Assembly (NCBI RefSeq): GCF_000702325.1
Contig: NZ_KL370891.1
Location: forward strand, 1,014,917 to 1,078,916
Direction: 5' to 3'
Length of the DNA: 64,000 bases
Source of the DNA: Thiomicrorhabdus sp. Milos-T2
Lineage (GTDB): Bacteria > Pseudomonadota > Gammaproteobacteria > Thiomicrospirales > Thiomicrospiraceae
The notes under the pieces are model-generated. The model made no database searches. It saw only the letters and a list, made by a program, of their open reading frames with translations, and was not told the DNA's origin. Of this stretch, positions 41,866 through 53,760 are shown one piece after another (position 1 is the first letter of the stretch; every line of letters starts with the position of its first letter). Position numbers and translations under genes: made by a program.

Positions 41866-42627
41866 ATGTCATTTTGCATTATTATTCCTGCCCGTTTTGA
41901 ATCAAGTCGTTTACCTGGTAAACCTTTAATGGATATTCACGGTAAACCGATGATTCAATGGACTTGGTTACAAGCAAAAAAATCGGGAGCGCAACGTATT
42001 ATTATTGCCACCGAGTCAGTGCAAGTAAAACAGGCCTGTGAGGGGTTTGGTGCGGAGGTCTGTTTAACTGGTGACCAGCATCAGTCAGGCACAGAGCGTA
42101 TTGCCGAAGTGATTGAACTCTCTGGTATTGCAGAAGATGAAATTATTGTTAATGTGCAGGGTGATGAGCCCATGTTGCCTGCTGAATTAATTCATCAAGT
42201 GGCCGAAGGCTTAGAAACTCATTCACACATACAAATGGCCACCTTATGTGAGCCTATTCATTCTGTTGAAACCGTATTTGATCCACACGCAGTGAAAGTT
42301 TCTAGAGATGTTAATAACTTTGCGATTAACTTTAGCCGTGCACCACTGCCTTGGTCCAGAGATACCTTTTCTCAAGAGATTAAAACCTTACCTACTAATT
42401 GGGCATATAAACGCCATATTGGTTTATACGCTTATCGTGCAGGTTTTGTTAAACAGTATGTGGCTTGGCCAGAGTGTGATTTAGAACATGTTGAAAAATT
42501 AGAGCAATTACGTGTGCTTTGGCATGGGGTTGATATTTTAGTTTTAGATGCGCTATGTGATGCTGGTGTTGGTGTGGATACCGCTGACGACCTAAAGCAA
42601 GTTCGTAGCTTGTTAGCCCCAAATTAA
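41866..42627 (+). CDS. kdsB: 3-deoxy-manno-octulosonate cytidylyltransferase KdsB
   Basis: KdsB activates KDO as CMP-KDO for lipopolysaccharide core synthesis. The nucleotidyltransferase motif IIPARFESSRLPGKPL is at residues 5-20, followed by VNVQGDEPMLP and SRAPLPWSRD, with HIGLYAYR near the C-terminal part. At 253 aa it is full length. It is 21 bases after ycaR and 12 bases before a small membrane protein gene. Confidence 0.96.
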   Translation: MSFCIIIPARFESSRLPGKPLMDIHGKPMIQWTWLQAKKSGAQRIIIATESVQVKQACEGFGAEVCLTGDQHQSGTERIAEVIELSGIAEDEIIVNVQGDEPMLPAELIHQVAEGLETHSHIQMATLCEPIHSVETVFDPHAVKVSRDVNNFAINFSRAPLPWSRDTFSQEIKTLPTNWAYKRHIGLYAYRAGFVKQYVAWPECDLEHVEKLEQLRVLWHGVDILVLDALCDAGVGVDTADDLKQVRSLLAPN

Positions 42628-42639
42628 TCTCAGATTTTT

Positions 42640-42843
42640 ATGCTTAAATACCTTACCTTAATGGCCGTTATTTACTTTTTTTACTGGCTAATTAAACAAA
42701 AAATCCGTAACCGTAAACTAGAAGCGCAAGGCATTGTGGTTGAGCAAAAAGGCTTAAGACCCATCACCCTAATGAGTATTGTTATGGTGGTTATGTATGG
42801 CGGTTATATGATTTATTTTTTGATTTTTGCTAATAATGCTTAA
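42640..42843 (+). CDS. Small two-helix membrane protein of unknown function
   Basis: This 67-aa product has hydrophobic segments at about 3-16 and 46-64 separated by a basic linker (KQKIRNRKLEAQG). It starts 12 bases after kdsB and is probably co-transcribed with it. I do not recognise a family. Its stop is followed 49 bases later by a MITE in the opposite orientation. Confidence 0.6.
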   Translation: MLKYLTLMAVIYFFYWLIKQKIRNRKLEAQGIVVEQKGLRPITLMSIVMVVMYGGYMIYFLIFANNA

Positions 42844-42892
42844 TTTTTATTAGGCGTTTTTTTATCTAACGTTGTCGCGCATTATTCTTTTA

Positions 42893-43051
42893 GAGACCTT
42901 TGCACGAGATAGGTGCGAAAGAAAAATGAGGAAAAATTTGACTGATTGCGGCGGAAAACGCAGGGAATAGCTAGCTATTCGCAAGTTTTTCAACAAAAAT
43001 CGGGTTAATTTTAACCATTTTTACTCGTGCTTACTCTCGTGCAAAGGTCTC
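42893..43051 (-). mobile_element. MITE-like element, copy 4 (159 bp), supplying the btuF stop codon
   Basis: It is the short form in reverse orientation, flanked by a perfect TTTTA 5-bp duplication. Its end lies inside the 3' end of btuF, whose last codons (ETFARE and TAA) are element sequence. Confidence 0.92.
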
Positions 43052-43927
43052 TTTTAGTTTATCTAGGGCAGTTGGCTCTCTTGCTTGGTCTATTAAACTA
43101 CATAAACCAGGCAAATTCTTAATAAACCGTGCAGTTGGTCGTTGGTATAAATTATTATTTAAAAGAAATATATGTTGGTTTTTAACGGCATCCAAAAATG
43201 GATATTTTAGCCATTGCTGTTTCCAATTATTTTGAAATTCTTTTTGCCCACCTATTAAAAAGACCTTTGGGTTGCTTTGAATGACGCTTTCAATATTAAT
43301 TTGTGGCGCTAATATGGGTAGGTCTGAAAAGATATTCTGTGCGCCACAAATATTCATCGCTAAACTAATAAATTGTTTGCCATTAACGGTCATTAAAGGT
43401 TTTTGCCAAACCTCATAAAACGCAGAGACTTTCTGTTTGTGATGATAAAGTGTTTTTAATTGATTTAGGGTTGAATTTAATTTTTTAGCGTGTTGGTTTG
43501 CAATCATTGAAGTACCAGCTTGTTGACCAATTTGGCTGATGAGGTTGGGAATATCTTGTAAGGACTGTATTTGTGTTAACCAAACCTCTAATCCAAGTGA
43601 TTTTAATTTTGCAATATCTTGCGGCCTAATAGATGATTTCCATGCAATGATTAAATCGGGTTTGAGAGCCAAAATCGCTTCTATATTTATGGTCTGATAA
43701 TTACCCACAGAAGGTAGTTTTTTTGCTTGCTCAGGATAGTCAGAATAGTCGCTTACACCAATCAGATATTCCCCTGCACCAGCAGAATAAACCATCTCGG
43801 TAATATGAGGTGCCAAAGAGATAATGCGGTGTTTTGGTATAAATTCGGCTGACCAGGCCTGGTAATTTATAAAAACTAAACATAAAGTCAATAACGGAAA
43901 TGCGATGAGCTTATTCCAATTAAACAT
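43031..43927 (-). CDS. btuF: Vitamin B12 ABC transporter substrate-binding protein BtuF-like, with MITE-derived C-terminus
   Basis: The 298-aa product has a signal peptide (NKLIAFPLLTLCLVFINYQAWSA) and a periplasmic cobalamin/iron-type binding fold: HRIISLAPHITEMVYSAGAGEYLIGVS, DYPEQAKKLPSVGNYQTINIEAILALKPDLIIAW. The last six residues and stop come from MITE copy 4. I chose ATG 43927; the frame is open 14 codons further upstream through a duplicated stretch. It lies downstream of cobO and btuB. No btuC or btuD permease/ATPase genes are adjacent. The palindrome at 43853 codes for part of its signal peptide. Confidence 0.82.
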   Translation of the reverse strand: MFNWNKLIAFPLLTLCLVFINYQAWSAEFIPKHRIISLAPHITEMVYSAGAGEYLIGVSDYSDYPEQAKKLPSVGNYQTINIEAILALKPDLIIAWKSSIRPQDIAKLKSLGLEVWLTQIQSLQDIPNLISQIGQQAGTSMIANQHAKKLNSTLNQLKTLYHHKQKVSAFYEVWQKPLMTVNGKQFISLAMNICGAQNIFSDLPILAPQINIESVIQSNPKVFLIGGQKEFQNNWKQQWLKYPFLDAVKNQHIFLLNNNLYQRPTARFIKNLPGLCSLIDQAREPTALDKLKETFARE

Positions 43928-44005
43928 TATTGTTCTCAATATAATTTTTCTAAATACTATTGTTCTCAATATTATTCCGCCTAAATAAATAAGATTGAAA
44001 GCGCA

Positions 44006-44617
44006 CTATAAATCCACACCTTTTTGTGCCTTAATACCACTTGTATAAGCGTGTTTTTCATCTTTAATGTCTGAAACAGTATCGGCTAAATCGCGTAACT
44101 CAGAAATTGCGGTTCGGCCTGTTACTACAACATGCTGCATCTCAGGTCGGTTTTGAATGGTGTCTAGTACTAAGTTTTTATCGAGATATTCATAACTTAA
44201 TAGATAAGTAAGTTCATCCAATACCACTAAATCGTAGCTTGGATCATTTAGCATTTTAGTGACGACTTCCCAACCTTTTTCAGAGGTTTCAATATCTTGT
44301 TTTCTATCTTGGGTGTCCCAAGTAAAACCGTCACCTAAGACATGCCATTCACAATTAGGTTGTTGTTTAAAAAAAGCCTCTTCACCCGTATCAGTACGGC
44401 TTTTAATAAACTGACAAACCCCAACTTTCATCCCATGACCTAAAGCACGGGCCACCATGCCAAAACTTGAAGTTGATTTACCTTTACCATTACCGGTAAT
44501 CACTAATAAAATGCCTTTTTCATCATTAGCACGTTCAATTGAAGCATCAATTTGGGCTTTTTTTCGCTCCATGCGAACCTTGTGATATTGGTCTTGTTTT
44601 GTATTTTGTTGAGTCAT
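44006..44617 (-). CDS. cobO: Cob(I)yrinic acid a,c-diamide adenosyltransferase
   Basis: The 203-aa enzyme adenosylates the corrin ring in cobalamin synthesis or salvage (CobO/BtuR/CobA family). The P-loop is GNGKGKS at 42-48, followed by SSFGMVARALGHGMKVGVCQFIK, ETSEKGWEV, YDLVVLDELTYLLSYEYLD and VVTGR. The N-terminal 30 residues are basic, as in E. coli BtuR. It lies between btuB and btuF on the same strand, which supports a B12 salvage role; all three may be under the upstream riboswitch. Confidence 0.93.
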   Translation of the reverse strand: MTQQNTKQDQYHKVRMERKKAQIDASIERANDEKGILLVITGNGKGKSTSSFGMVARALGHGMKVGVCQFIKSRTDTGEEAFFKQQPNCEWHVLGDGFTWDTQDRKQDIETSEKGWEVVTKMLNDPSYDLVVLDELTYLLSYEYLDKNLVLDTIQNRPEMQHVVVTGRTAISELRDLADTVSDIKDEKHAYTSGIKAQKGVDL

Positions 44618-44664
44618 ATTGTTTCTCTAAATTTAAGTACTGTCTTATAAATTATTGCCAGACA

Positions 44665-44705
44665 AACATAAAACACGATGATGAGTATATACCGTGTTTT
44701 ATGTT
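44665..44705 (-). terminator. Inverted repeat between btuB and cobO
   Basis: AACATAAAACACG and CGTGTTTTATGTT form a perfect 13-bp stem with a 15-base loop. It has no strong T tract, so it could be a weak terminator or a processing/stability element lowering cobO expression relative to btuB. Confidence 0.55.
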
Positions 44706-44719
44706 ATGAACGTTTTACA

Positions 44720-46594
44720 TTAAAGACTGCTTTGAACACCAATAAAGAATTGGCGACCACCGTTATTATAGATATCTTGAACAGGGGAACTTGTATCATA
44801 AGTAGAAGAGTAATTTGCTACTGCATTTGTATAATTTTCATTAAACGCATTTACAACTCGGCCATAGATAGCTAGATTTTTATTGATACGGTAACTTGCT
44901 GTTAAGTTAGTCGTAAAGTAATCACCTATTTGTGCACTCTGTCCATTGGCTTCATTTCTATCATTCATTTGCCCAATATAACGTGTTTCAATACCTAACA
45001 CCGTGTTTTTAAATCCATCATAACTTACATTTAAGTTTGCTTGAGATTCTGGACGACGTCCTAACCATTTATTATTGGAATCTTTTGCACTTAATGTTTC
45101 ATATGATAAATATAGCTCAGTATCCAGTGTATTAAAATAGTGAGAATAGCTAATTTCCATGCCTTTTAAATTACTTTTTCCTGATTCGTTGTAATAACCA
45201 AAACTGGTAGAGTCATAGGAATATAAATCACTAATTTCATTATTGTAATAACTAAGTTGAAGACCATAAACTCCTAAATTAACCTCATATCCCTCTGTTG
45301 TTTCAGGTTGAAGATTAAATCCTGGTACAGGATGAGTGTACTGATATAGTGATGGTGCGTTATAAGCGGTTCCATATTGTCCACTAAGATAAACATCAGG
45401 CGTAAAGTAGTTCTTAAAGCCAATCTTGCCAGTTAATTTATCATCAAAATTGTTGTCATAATTATCTTTTCTGATAGATTCGGTTAGGATTAAAGAACCA
45501 TTGTTAAAGTGGTTTGTATTTGATACAAACAATCCAGTGGATTGATATTCAGAAGTAGATACACCGTAATAGTCGCTTAAACCATTGGTGATGGTTTGGG
45601 TTAACCCAGCTGCAAAAGTTTGATTTTTTAAATATTCATAATTTGCAACAGCGCCTTTTTCAGTTATATCGCCTTTGTAATAAGCTGTAGAAAATGGGTC
45701 AGTTACTGTTCGATCAATTTCAAATTTACTTAGGTAAATTCGCAGATTAAAACGGTCTTGGTTATAAATGTATTGCAATTTACGCAAAGTACTATTCATG
45801 TCTGAATTAGAAAGAGTGTCATTAGTGTCAATAGGAAAACCTGAATCAAAATCAGTATTGGTGGTGCCTTTTTTAATAAACGTTTCCAAACGATGATGCT
45901 TATTTAAGTTAACGCCTAATTTGAGTGAAAAATCTGTTTGAGAATAGCCATCATTTTCACCATCACTGGCATCACCGTTTACAGGCATAATTGTTGAAAA
46001 TCCATCGCTATTGATATTTGAAATTGAAAAAGCAAAATCGCCTTGTTCATTAGCAGCACTTAAACCAGCAACCAATTTTTTTGTATTGTTTGAACCTAAC
46101 TCAATATTAACTTGACCTTGTTCACCTGATTTAGCTTGCGTAGTAATAATATTAATAACACCTGCGGCTGCATTTGCACCCCATACACCTGCTTGCGGGC
46201 CTTTTAAGATTTCAATGCGTTCTATGTCTTGTAGTGCCACTGAGTTTAGGTTTGCACCAAAGCCAGAAGGGTCATTAATAGCGATTCCATCAACCATTAC
46301 AAGAACTTGCCCTGATGAAGAACCTCTCATTTGAATACTGGTAGCTTGAAGAGGTCCACCATTATTATATAAGTTAACACCTGGTACTTGCTGCAATGCT
46401 TGCTGCAGCGTTTGATACTGCTTTTCTTTTATCTCTTCGCGTGTAATAACGTTAATTTGGCTGGTGATTGATTGAATGTTTTGAGACATATTGTTTGCTG
46501 TCACAACAATCTTGTCTAAATTTGTGGTTTCAGCAAAGACGTTTTGTGAAATGGTAGCAACTAAAATAGCCGCAGATATTTTTGAGAGTTTCAT
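44720..46594 (-). CDS. btuB: TonB-dependent cobalamin receptor BtuB
   Basis: The 624-aa outer-membrane beta-barrel has a signal peptide (to about residue 21, VFA), a TonB box (NLDKIVVTA, 25-33) and a plug domain (INVITREEIKEKQ, QVPGVNLYNNG, VLVMVDGIAIND, ERIEILKGPQAGVWGANAAAGVINIIT). A barrel ending in an aromatic-rich strand follows (GGRQFFIGVQSSL). The cobalamin assignment rests on the riboswitch just upstream and the cobO/btuF genes downstream, with BtuB-like length. Confidence 0.92.
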   Translation of the reverse strand: MKLSKISAAILVATISQNVFAETTNLDKIVVTANNMSQNIQSITSQINVITREEIKEKQYQTLQQALQQVPGVNLYNNGGPLQATSIQMRGSSSGQVLVMVDGIAINDPSGFGANLNSVALQDIERIEILKGPQAGVWGANAAAGVINIITTQAKSGEQGQVNIELGSNNTKKLVAGLSAANEQGDFAFSISNINSDGFSTIMPVNGDASDGENDGYSQTDFSLKLGVNLNKHHRLETFIKKGTTNTDFDSGFPIDTNDTLSNSDMNSTLRKLQYIYNQDRFNLRIYLSKFEIDRTVTDPFSTAYYKGDITEKGAVANYEYLKNQTFAAGLTQTITNGLSDYYGVSTSEYQSTGLFVSNTNHFNNGSLILTESIRKDNYDNNFDDKLTGKIGFKNYFTPDVYLSGQYGTAYNAPSLYQYTHPVPGFNLQPETTEGYEVNLGVYGLQLSYYNNEISDLYSYDSTSFGYYNESGKSNLKGMEISYSHYFNTLDTELYLSYETLSAKDSNNKWLGRRPESQANLNVSYDGFKNTVLGIETRYIGQMNDRNEANGQSAQIGDYFTTNLTASYRINKNLAIYGRVVNAFNENYTNAVANYSSTYDTSSPVQDIYNNGGRQFFIGVQSSL

Positions 46595-46774: not shown

Positions 46775-46808
46775 GGCCTGAAATTACCAGGCCTGGTAGT
46801 TTCAGGCC
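46775..46808 (-). promoter_or_regulatory. Palindrome-centred hairpin adjoining the cobalamin riboswitch
   Basis: GGCCTGAAA, TTACCAGGCCTGGTAG and TTTCAGGCC make one near-perfect 34-base inverted repeat. Its far arm overlaps the last GGCC of the riboswitch aptamer, so it could be the expression platform, pairing with or freeing aptamer bases. No T tract follows. The role is inference. Confidence 0.5.
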
Positions 46809-46965
46809 GGTATCCGGGCTTAAGAGCAATTTCAGATTGCCTTCTCAGAACGAACGTTCCAATGGCTAAAGTAATCTGTTTTCTCTATCACCGTTGCGGG
46901 GGCAGCGCTGGAATAGAAGGATTAAAACCCTTCGCACCATACTTCCCGTTTAACTTTACCCTTTT
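46805..46965 (-). ncRNA. Cobalamin riboswitch
   Basis: On the reverse strand the order is GGGAAGTATGGTGCGAAGGG, AATCC, CGCTGCCCCCGCAACGG, a B12-box-like GCCATTGG, and the closing AAGCCCGGATACCGGCC. This is the order of conserved blocks in the AdoCbl riboswitch. It precedes btuB by about 210 bases and should repress the uptake genes when cobalamin is plentiful. Boundaries are approximate. Confidence 0.88.
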
Positions 46966-47089
46966 GAAAAGCTTCAATTAGTAAAGCACCTGAAAAAAGC
47001 TAGATTGTACTTAGCTAGATTTGAAAAACAAGGGTTTCTTAATAAAAACGTAAAGAAATATGAATGTTATTTGAGAAAGGTTTGCATAA

Positions 47090-53297: not shown

Positions 53298-53662
53298 TTT
53301 AATCAGACAGTACAGCGATTGAGAAGCCTTTTAAAATATTACGCCTTTGCCTTAAATTTTGTCACGCAGGCTTCCCGTTACTTTTTGCAATTTGGCAAAA
53401 AGTAACCAAAAAAACAAACCCCGCTCCATAAATGGGCAAGTTCTAAGCTTGTGAACTGAAAACGCTGAACTAGCTACGCTCAAACAGCAGCGTTTTTTTA
53501 CCGTTCAATACGCTAAGAACCTTGCACCATTTATTACAAGGGGACTTATGGCGTTTGTCCAAGCTTCAATGTAAAGCGCCGCAGAAGTGAAAATAATTCT
53601 AATCTCATTATGGTGGGGTATTAAATTAGAATAGTATTTGACTGTTGTTCTGTCAGATTAAG
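53298..53662 (+). repeat. Long structured repeat, copy B (about 365 bp)
   Basis: It is nearly full-length identical to 483-845. It keeps the GTTACTTTTTGC/GCAAAAAGTAAC stem, and in the second hairpin both arms change together (ACGCTG with CAGCGT instead of ATGCTG with CAGCAT). It lies 17 bases after dbpA. Ends TTTAATCAGACAG and CTGTCAGATTAA are inverted repeats. Confidence 0.78.
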
Positions 53663-53760
53663 TTGAATTTTCTACTTTTAACCATTGAGCCACTCGTTTT
53701 TTGTATTAAAATCTGGTTTATAACCATTTTCAGTCTTGCAAAGCCGTTTTTAAAGGTCTG

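Follow-up and report, generated by a model that had tools for sequence, protein, structure and literature searches.

The window analysed here comprises 64,000 nucleotides (G000:C1:1014917-1078916) of a genome of 2.66 Mb on two contigs. It carries btuF in a B12 gene context, with cobO, a gene for a btuB-like receptor, and a cobalamin riboswitch, and a MITE copy lies across the 3' end of btuF. The features of the locus are listed in Table 1.

Table 1 Features at the btuF locus and occurrences of the 12-bp palindrome in the window.
Feature	Position in the window	Strand	Remarks
Convergent 67-aa ORF (ORF67)	42640..42843	+	Adjoins btuF in G021 (95.5% identical), G030, G003, and G009; further off in G015
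TAA closing btuF as ...DKLKE-stop with the flanks joined at one TTTTA	42882..42884	-	Reconstruction
Target duplication TTTTA, distal side	42888..42892	.	5 bp, read from the sequence
MITE copy	42893..43051	-	159 bp, imperfect palindrome, GAGACCTTTGCACGA ends; GAGAGTA.. end toward btuF
TAA stop inside the MITE	43031..43033	-	TAT in the family consensus; the change is in the third base (43031)
Six MITE-derived codons, ETFARE	43034..43051	-	18 nt of sense codons inside the element
btuF CDS, B12-binding periplasmic protein	43031..43927	-	Likely ATG at 43927; longest TTG-start ORF 43031-43969
Target duplication TTTTA, btuF side	43052..43056	.	5 bp, read from the sequence
cobO/btuR, corrinoid adenosyltransferase	44006..44617	-	Upstream of btuF; profile matches
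btuB-like TonB-dependent receptor	44720..46594	-	TonB-B12 as best NCBIfam model, with a score under the cut-off
Cobalamin riboswitch upstream of btuB	46788..47008	-	RF00174, 102.8 bits
12-bp palindrome ACCAGGCCTGGT	1930, 13375, 15167, 17912, 27025, 38330, 39986, 43852, 46786, 47089, 49451, 51050, 51828, 60449		

The product of btuF, read from the TTG start, passed the Pfam cut-off for PF01497 (E 4.1e-23), and its best NCBIfam model was BtuF (NF002894; E 9.7e-53, 179 bits, which is below the cut-off of 234). For the form starting at ATG, the best solved chains were B12-binding proteins, and the BtuF chains among them aligned only as far as residues 281-282. The order DUF3581-btuB-cobO-btuF-ORF67-kdsB-lpxK was kept in G021, G030, and G009, and, with wider spacing, in G015. 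The stretch examined around btuF of G003 gave no match to btuB, and btuF was the only gene of this neighbourhood found in the stretch of G018. Between cobO and btuB, the window has only about 100 bp (44617-44720); at this place G021 has an ORF of 524 aa (L144:6998-8572), which looks cobQ/cbiP-like by eye.

The MITE copy at btuF and its family

The sequence of the btuF copy is GAGACCTTTGCA...TGCAAAGGTCTC, with perfect 15-nt inverted ends on both sides, and its insertion site is C-TTTTA-G. RNA folding gave one long hairpin (-51.8 kcal/mol, z -6.94), which is followed on the plus strand by TTTTAGTTT. The copy differs from the family consensus at five of the 159 positions. The consensus has stops in all six frames, and 159 bp is too small for a transposase of its own.

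Genome-wide, 48 strict copies were found in which both 15-nt ends are perfect; a reversed-pattern control for the end pairs gave 0 copies in the whole genome. When up to three mismatches in 27 nt were allowed, right ends numbered 88 on the forward and 92 on the reverse strand (about 180 in all). We read 128 loci, that is, the 48 strict copies and 80 further loci among the matches listed (70 and 10 from two listings). Among these, 127 could be paired to full elements; the sole unpaired right end, L186, had no transposase ORF there. The length was 159 bp in 71 of the 127 elements among the matches listed and 158 to 276 bp in the remainder. Exact 5-bp duplications flanked 72 of the 127 copies, again among the matches listed, and a further 38 had a 4/5 match; 2000 shuffles of the flanks gave 2.2 exact matches on average and never more than 9. 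The recurrence of the element and this excess of 5-bp duplications indicate that the element at btuF is not a chance occurrence. The 72 exact duplication sites were AT-rich, and, with both strands pooled, the adjoining base was a pyrimidine before the site (a purine after it) in 91% of cases. Accordingly, the btuF element is a MITE, with terminal inverted repeats, many copies, a target duplication, and no transposase of its own. Four strict copies of 161 bp (L105, L107, L137, and L139) have the same 15-nt ends and a different interior.

A DNA match to the element was obtained in 27 of 57 relatives (58 genomes searched, including the source genome). The plasmid collection, from which near records may be left out, gave no match to the element. 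A literature search for Thiomicrorhabdus and MITE found nothing, and a search by sequence did not find the 15-nt end sequence. The GAGACC-type ends may resemble those of IS5-family-like MITEs; a 5-bp duplication is not known to be usual for most IS5 subgroups.

A helper transposase was sought with the PF01609 profile, the sole transposase family covered, and the genome yielded 22 matches. For 15 copies, 13 of them with 400-aa transposases and two from a second group, the insertion sequence (IS) ends could be defined; in both groups they were unrelated to the MITE ends. In three more stretches with 339-aa transposase copies, whose protein is almost identical to that of the second group, no MITE-like ends were found around the transposase. 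The comparison left out three more second-group copies and the partial hit C2:431262.

Other repeats were observed besides the MITE family. In the window, the palindrome ACCAGGCCTGGT of 12 bp was counted 14 times, where 0.01 would be expected, and the genome as a whole has 498 occurrences. Among 10 other genomes, it was counted 446-718 times in G021, G030, G009, G015, and G018, 289 times in G033, 181 times in G035, once each in the congeners G003 and G024, and 0 times in G055. It looks like a lineage-variable abundant palindrome of a HIP1- or uptake-sequence-like kind; the 12-mer was not found in a literature search by sequence. The 1.3-kb IS with the 400-aa PF01609 transposase (L115-L127) has CCAGGCCTGG on both sides in all 13 copies and seems to use this abundant palindrome as its target, duplicating 10 bp, unless the palindromic sequence is part of the IS ends themselves. 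The window also contains a direct repeat of 297 nt with 83% identity (566-862 and 53383-53679), near the inverted repeat GTTACTTTTTGCAATTTGGCAAAAAGTAAC.

The 3' end of btuF with and without the element

The btuF ORF ends with ...DKLKETFARE, and on the minus strand the border between gene and element (slash) reads CTA AAA / GAG ACC TTT GCA CGA GAG TAA. As the original prediction stated, the ETFARE codons and the TAA lie inside the MITE end with TTTTA on both sides, and the MITE end supplies the btuF stop; both points were borne out by the sequence and by the ORF reading. The stop itself is due to a base change unique to the btuF copy, a detail absent from that prediction. At element positions 19-21, 38 of 40 aligned 159-bp copies have TAT, one has CAT, and one, the btuF copy, has TAA. 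The 22-mer GAGACCTTTGCACGAGAGTAAG, which carries the TAA, occurs once genome-wide. In frame 0, the frame in which btuF enters the element, the consensus of the 40 aligned copies reads ETFAREYARVKMVKIHLIFVEKLANS-stop and is open for 26 codons; T to A at element position 21 makes codon 7 TAA in the btuF copy.

Joining the flanks at one TTTTA gave a protein of 307 aa, compared with 312 aa for the present btuF (both from the TTG start). The statement that the MITE end had replaced the natural C-terminus is hence true to the letter but overstated, as only "E-stop" was exchanged for "ETFARE-stop", with a net gain of five residues, in a variable tail.

Matches to btuF were found in 48 of 58 genomes (source included), and the loci of the best 29 relatives were read. 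The C-terminus and the 3' flank were readable at 28 of these 29 loci, and the locus of G012 runs off its contig. Relatives that lack the MITE and still end in ETFARE were looked for, and this ending was seen in none of the 28 relatives with a readable btuF C-terminus, an outcome in line with the original prediction. In the closest relative, G021 (78% identical by tblastn), btuF ends with ...AREKPTLNKP-stop, and the locus is colinear with the joined flanks through the 3' stretch of btuF without the element. In the alignment, the stop of G021 falls a little upstream of the stop predicted for the time before the insertion, and the ancestral ending is therefore reconstructed from a single genome. 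A blastn search of the 29 relatives' btuF loci with the MITE consensus revealed no insertion and only two short, weak matches, one of 24 nt in L011 (E 0.047) and one of 13 nt in L031 (E 0.57). The positive controls in the same database, namely the source locus and the known MITE locus L039 of G018, were strongly found. End-like strings with 3/15 mismatches in L011, L018, and L020 had no whole-element blastn support and were rejected.

In an alignment of 27 sequences (the source BtuF and 26 relatives with a simple reading), R283 of 298 was the last residue to be invariant. The tail beyond the conserved QAR region ranged from 0 to 27 residues across 28 relatives. The MITE-derived residues are 293-298 of the 298-aa ATG form; they begin about 10 residues beyond the last invariant one, in the variable tail. 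The AlphaFold model of BtuF had a mean pLDDT of 91.7, with 87-98 for residues 31-280, 76 for residues 281-290, and 69 for residues 291-298. A low-confidence helix was placed at 287-297, and hence the tail need not be disordered. These results place the change made by the MITE outside the conserved BtuF core.

Formation of the btuF end and its alternatives

Taken together, these findings are best explained by insertion of a MITE near the btuF stop followed by a T-to-A change that left a probably neutral tail, and we give this reading a probability of about 0.9. A non-autonomous palindromic MITE of 159 bp, presumably mobilised in trans by a transposase, would have inserted a single codon ahead of the stop of btuF, in the spacer that separates the convergent btuF and ORF67, and duplicated 5 bp there. 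Translation would then have passed into the element in frame 0, and a later T-to-A change at element position 21, which no other copy has, would have trimmed the tail to ETFARE. Because the consensus frame is open for 26 codons and the TAA is present only in the btuF copy, the insertion probably first added 26 residues, which the base change then cut to six. Alternatively, a source copy that has since been lost could already have had the TAA. The BtuF core would be unaffected, and the effect of the predicted ETFARE tail is most likely neutral.

The T-to-A change might also have been selected, if a tail of 26 residues was harmful and the stop at codon 7 restored a nearly normal protein. We consider this possible but rather unlikely. 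The sole copy with the TAA variant is indeed the one that is read in frame 0 by a long gene, and an Erwinia amidase fused to RU-1 likewise has a point-mutation stop inside the element, as far as it is described in the available text of PMC2759123. However, among the matches listed, an early frame-0 stop was present in 6 of the 71 copies of 159 bp including the btuF copy, and the other five (of 70 copies) had it without any ORF of at least 40 aa reading that frame. Furthermore, under uniform substitution, the chance that at least one of three substitutions in this half gives a stop is approximately 0.12.

It is more doubtful that the palindromic element also serves as a transcript end or stabiliser between btuF and ORF67 and has been kept for this reason. 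Its single long hairpin sits in the convergent spacer and is followed on the plus strand by the sequence given above, as such a function would suggest, but a terminator scan of 42600-43300 gave 0 terminator-like sites (0.5 in shuffles). Moreover, the absence of such an element at btuF from the 28 relatives' loci with a readable 3' flank indicates that it is not needed there.

The original prediction also held that btuC and btuD are not adjacent to btuF, and in fact the genome has a BtuC-like permease together with an ABC ATPase at a distance of about 0.93 Mb from btuF. This permease, at C1:1992005-1993048, is the sole full-length FecCD permease and adjoins the ATPase; the pair is at L143:5148-7049. 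The best model of the permease was BtuC (NF003001; 260.8 bits, below the cut-off of 334), and the best NCBIfam model of the ATPase was a heme HmuV-like one and not BtuD (246.6, cut-off 261), so that the substrate of the pair is uncertain. Loss of btuCD was rejected insofar as one full-length BtuC-like FecCD permease with an ATPase is present. The permease was searched in 36 genomes including the source, and distances were taken where the best btuF match and the best permease match were on one contig. In all eight congeners measured (G003, G005, G009, G015, G017, G018, G019, and G021), the two genes were approximately 0.50 to 1.04 Mb apart. In the three relatives of other families with both genes on one contig, they were within 1 kb (G038), about 10 kb (G041), and about 0.16 Mb (G040) of each other, and in the remaining genomes searched they were on different contigs or one of them was not found. 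In some congeners (G002, G013, and G014), a second permease is present with another, weaker binding protein next to it. The distance between btuF and btuC is thus a common trait of the eight congeners measured and is independent of the MITE insertion; given the closer spacing in G038, G041, and G040, the two genes may have been parted earlier in this lineage.

The further suggestion of that prediction, that MITE recombination rearranged the locus and parted btuF from btuCD, is highly improbable and was rejected: many MITE copies could recombine and the spacing in G038 and G041 suggests that the genes may once have been neighbours, but the target duplication is intact, G021, G030, and G009 have the same gene order around a btuF at which no element was found, and the separation is shared by the congeners measured, independent of the insertion.

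Element borders in other genes and comparison with known systems

Among the matches listed, nine open frames of at least 90 aa ended at or inside an element (254 sides of 127 copies); five of them leave the stretch read, and their lengths are lower bounds. The border makes the stop in seven of the nine frames, as T/GA in six and as TA/G in one, and the stop lies inside the element in two, btuF and a histidine-kinase-like frame (L190). When the flanks were joined, there was no change of length in L175 (CobW-like), L191 (class-III aminotransferase-like), L200 (FolD-like), and L216 (no Pfam match). The frame had gained three residues in L190 and five in btuF, and had lost 20 in L171 (asparaginase-like), 24 in L187 (AcrB-family), and 94 in L207. 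Exact duplications were present only in btuF, L175, L191, and L200; the match was 4/5 in L190, L207, and L216 and lower in L171 and L187, and the empty sites of these five are therefore less sure. Pfam scans covered btuF and seven other frames, with L207 left out. With the 48 strict copies and a threshold of at least 80 aa, btuF was the only such frame, and the other eight came from the 80 loci added. No enrichment of landings in stop codons emerged: among the matches listed, four landings inside a stop without a change of length compare with a rough expectation of three, which was derived from the 29 landings that lie at most 20 nt behind a stop, with slightly different ORF rules for the two counts.

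From these borders, one might regard the family as a portable stop donor acting through its GA-start ends and its AT-rich Y-W5-R target, an idea that we hold to be improbable. If it were true, landing after the first base of a stop would give T/GA and landing after TA would give TA/G; insertion into a stop codon would usually leave the protein unchanged, and the family would accumulate at gene ends. Occasional landings in frame 0, such as that at btuF, would add a short tail that is later trimmed by mutation.

The btuF case is a clean example of a mobile element that rewrites the end of a protein, seemingly at low cost. Since the sequence shows the empty site as well as the duplication and the one base that changed, neutral drift versus repair is testable. 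Other copies of the family in this genome also form the stop of long open frames, and in annotation such C-termini should not be mistaken for the outcome of selection on the protein.

In kind, the case is ordinary: it is real and well supported, and a further example of an event type known in other bacteria. ORFs containing Rickettsia palindromic elements (RPE) generally continue on the far side of the element, and the btuF MITE, which ends its ORF, is unlike RPE in this respect. The two are alike in other respects, since RPE, in the portion of PMC10969869 available to us, are about 150 bp long, palindromic, and read through by genes; in-frame fusions of MITEs are reviewed there and in PMC2229807, as far as these texts were accessible. 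In the accessible part of PMC2759123, an RU-1/ERIC element removed the stop of the Erwinia carotovora amidase gene ECA3499, and a point mutation in the element made a new one. As at btuF, a short element took the normal stop and the protein was extended past its conserved domain, whereas ECA3499 gained 35 residues compared with six at btuF, the element belongs to a different family, and no target duplication is described in that part of the paper. In Coxiella burnetii, QMITE1 overlaps gene ends, by 2 bp in ubiB, 42 in pntAA, 26 in mutT, 50 in nagZ, and also in others (PMC5896051, in the part available). QMITE1 is 300-400 bp long with duplications of 2-3 nt, whereas the btuF MITE has 159 bp and a 5-bp AT-rich duplication; copies of both overlap the C-terminal end of genes, and in Coxiella, according to the same part of that paper, this applies to several functional genes.
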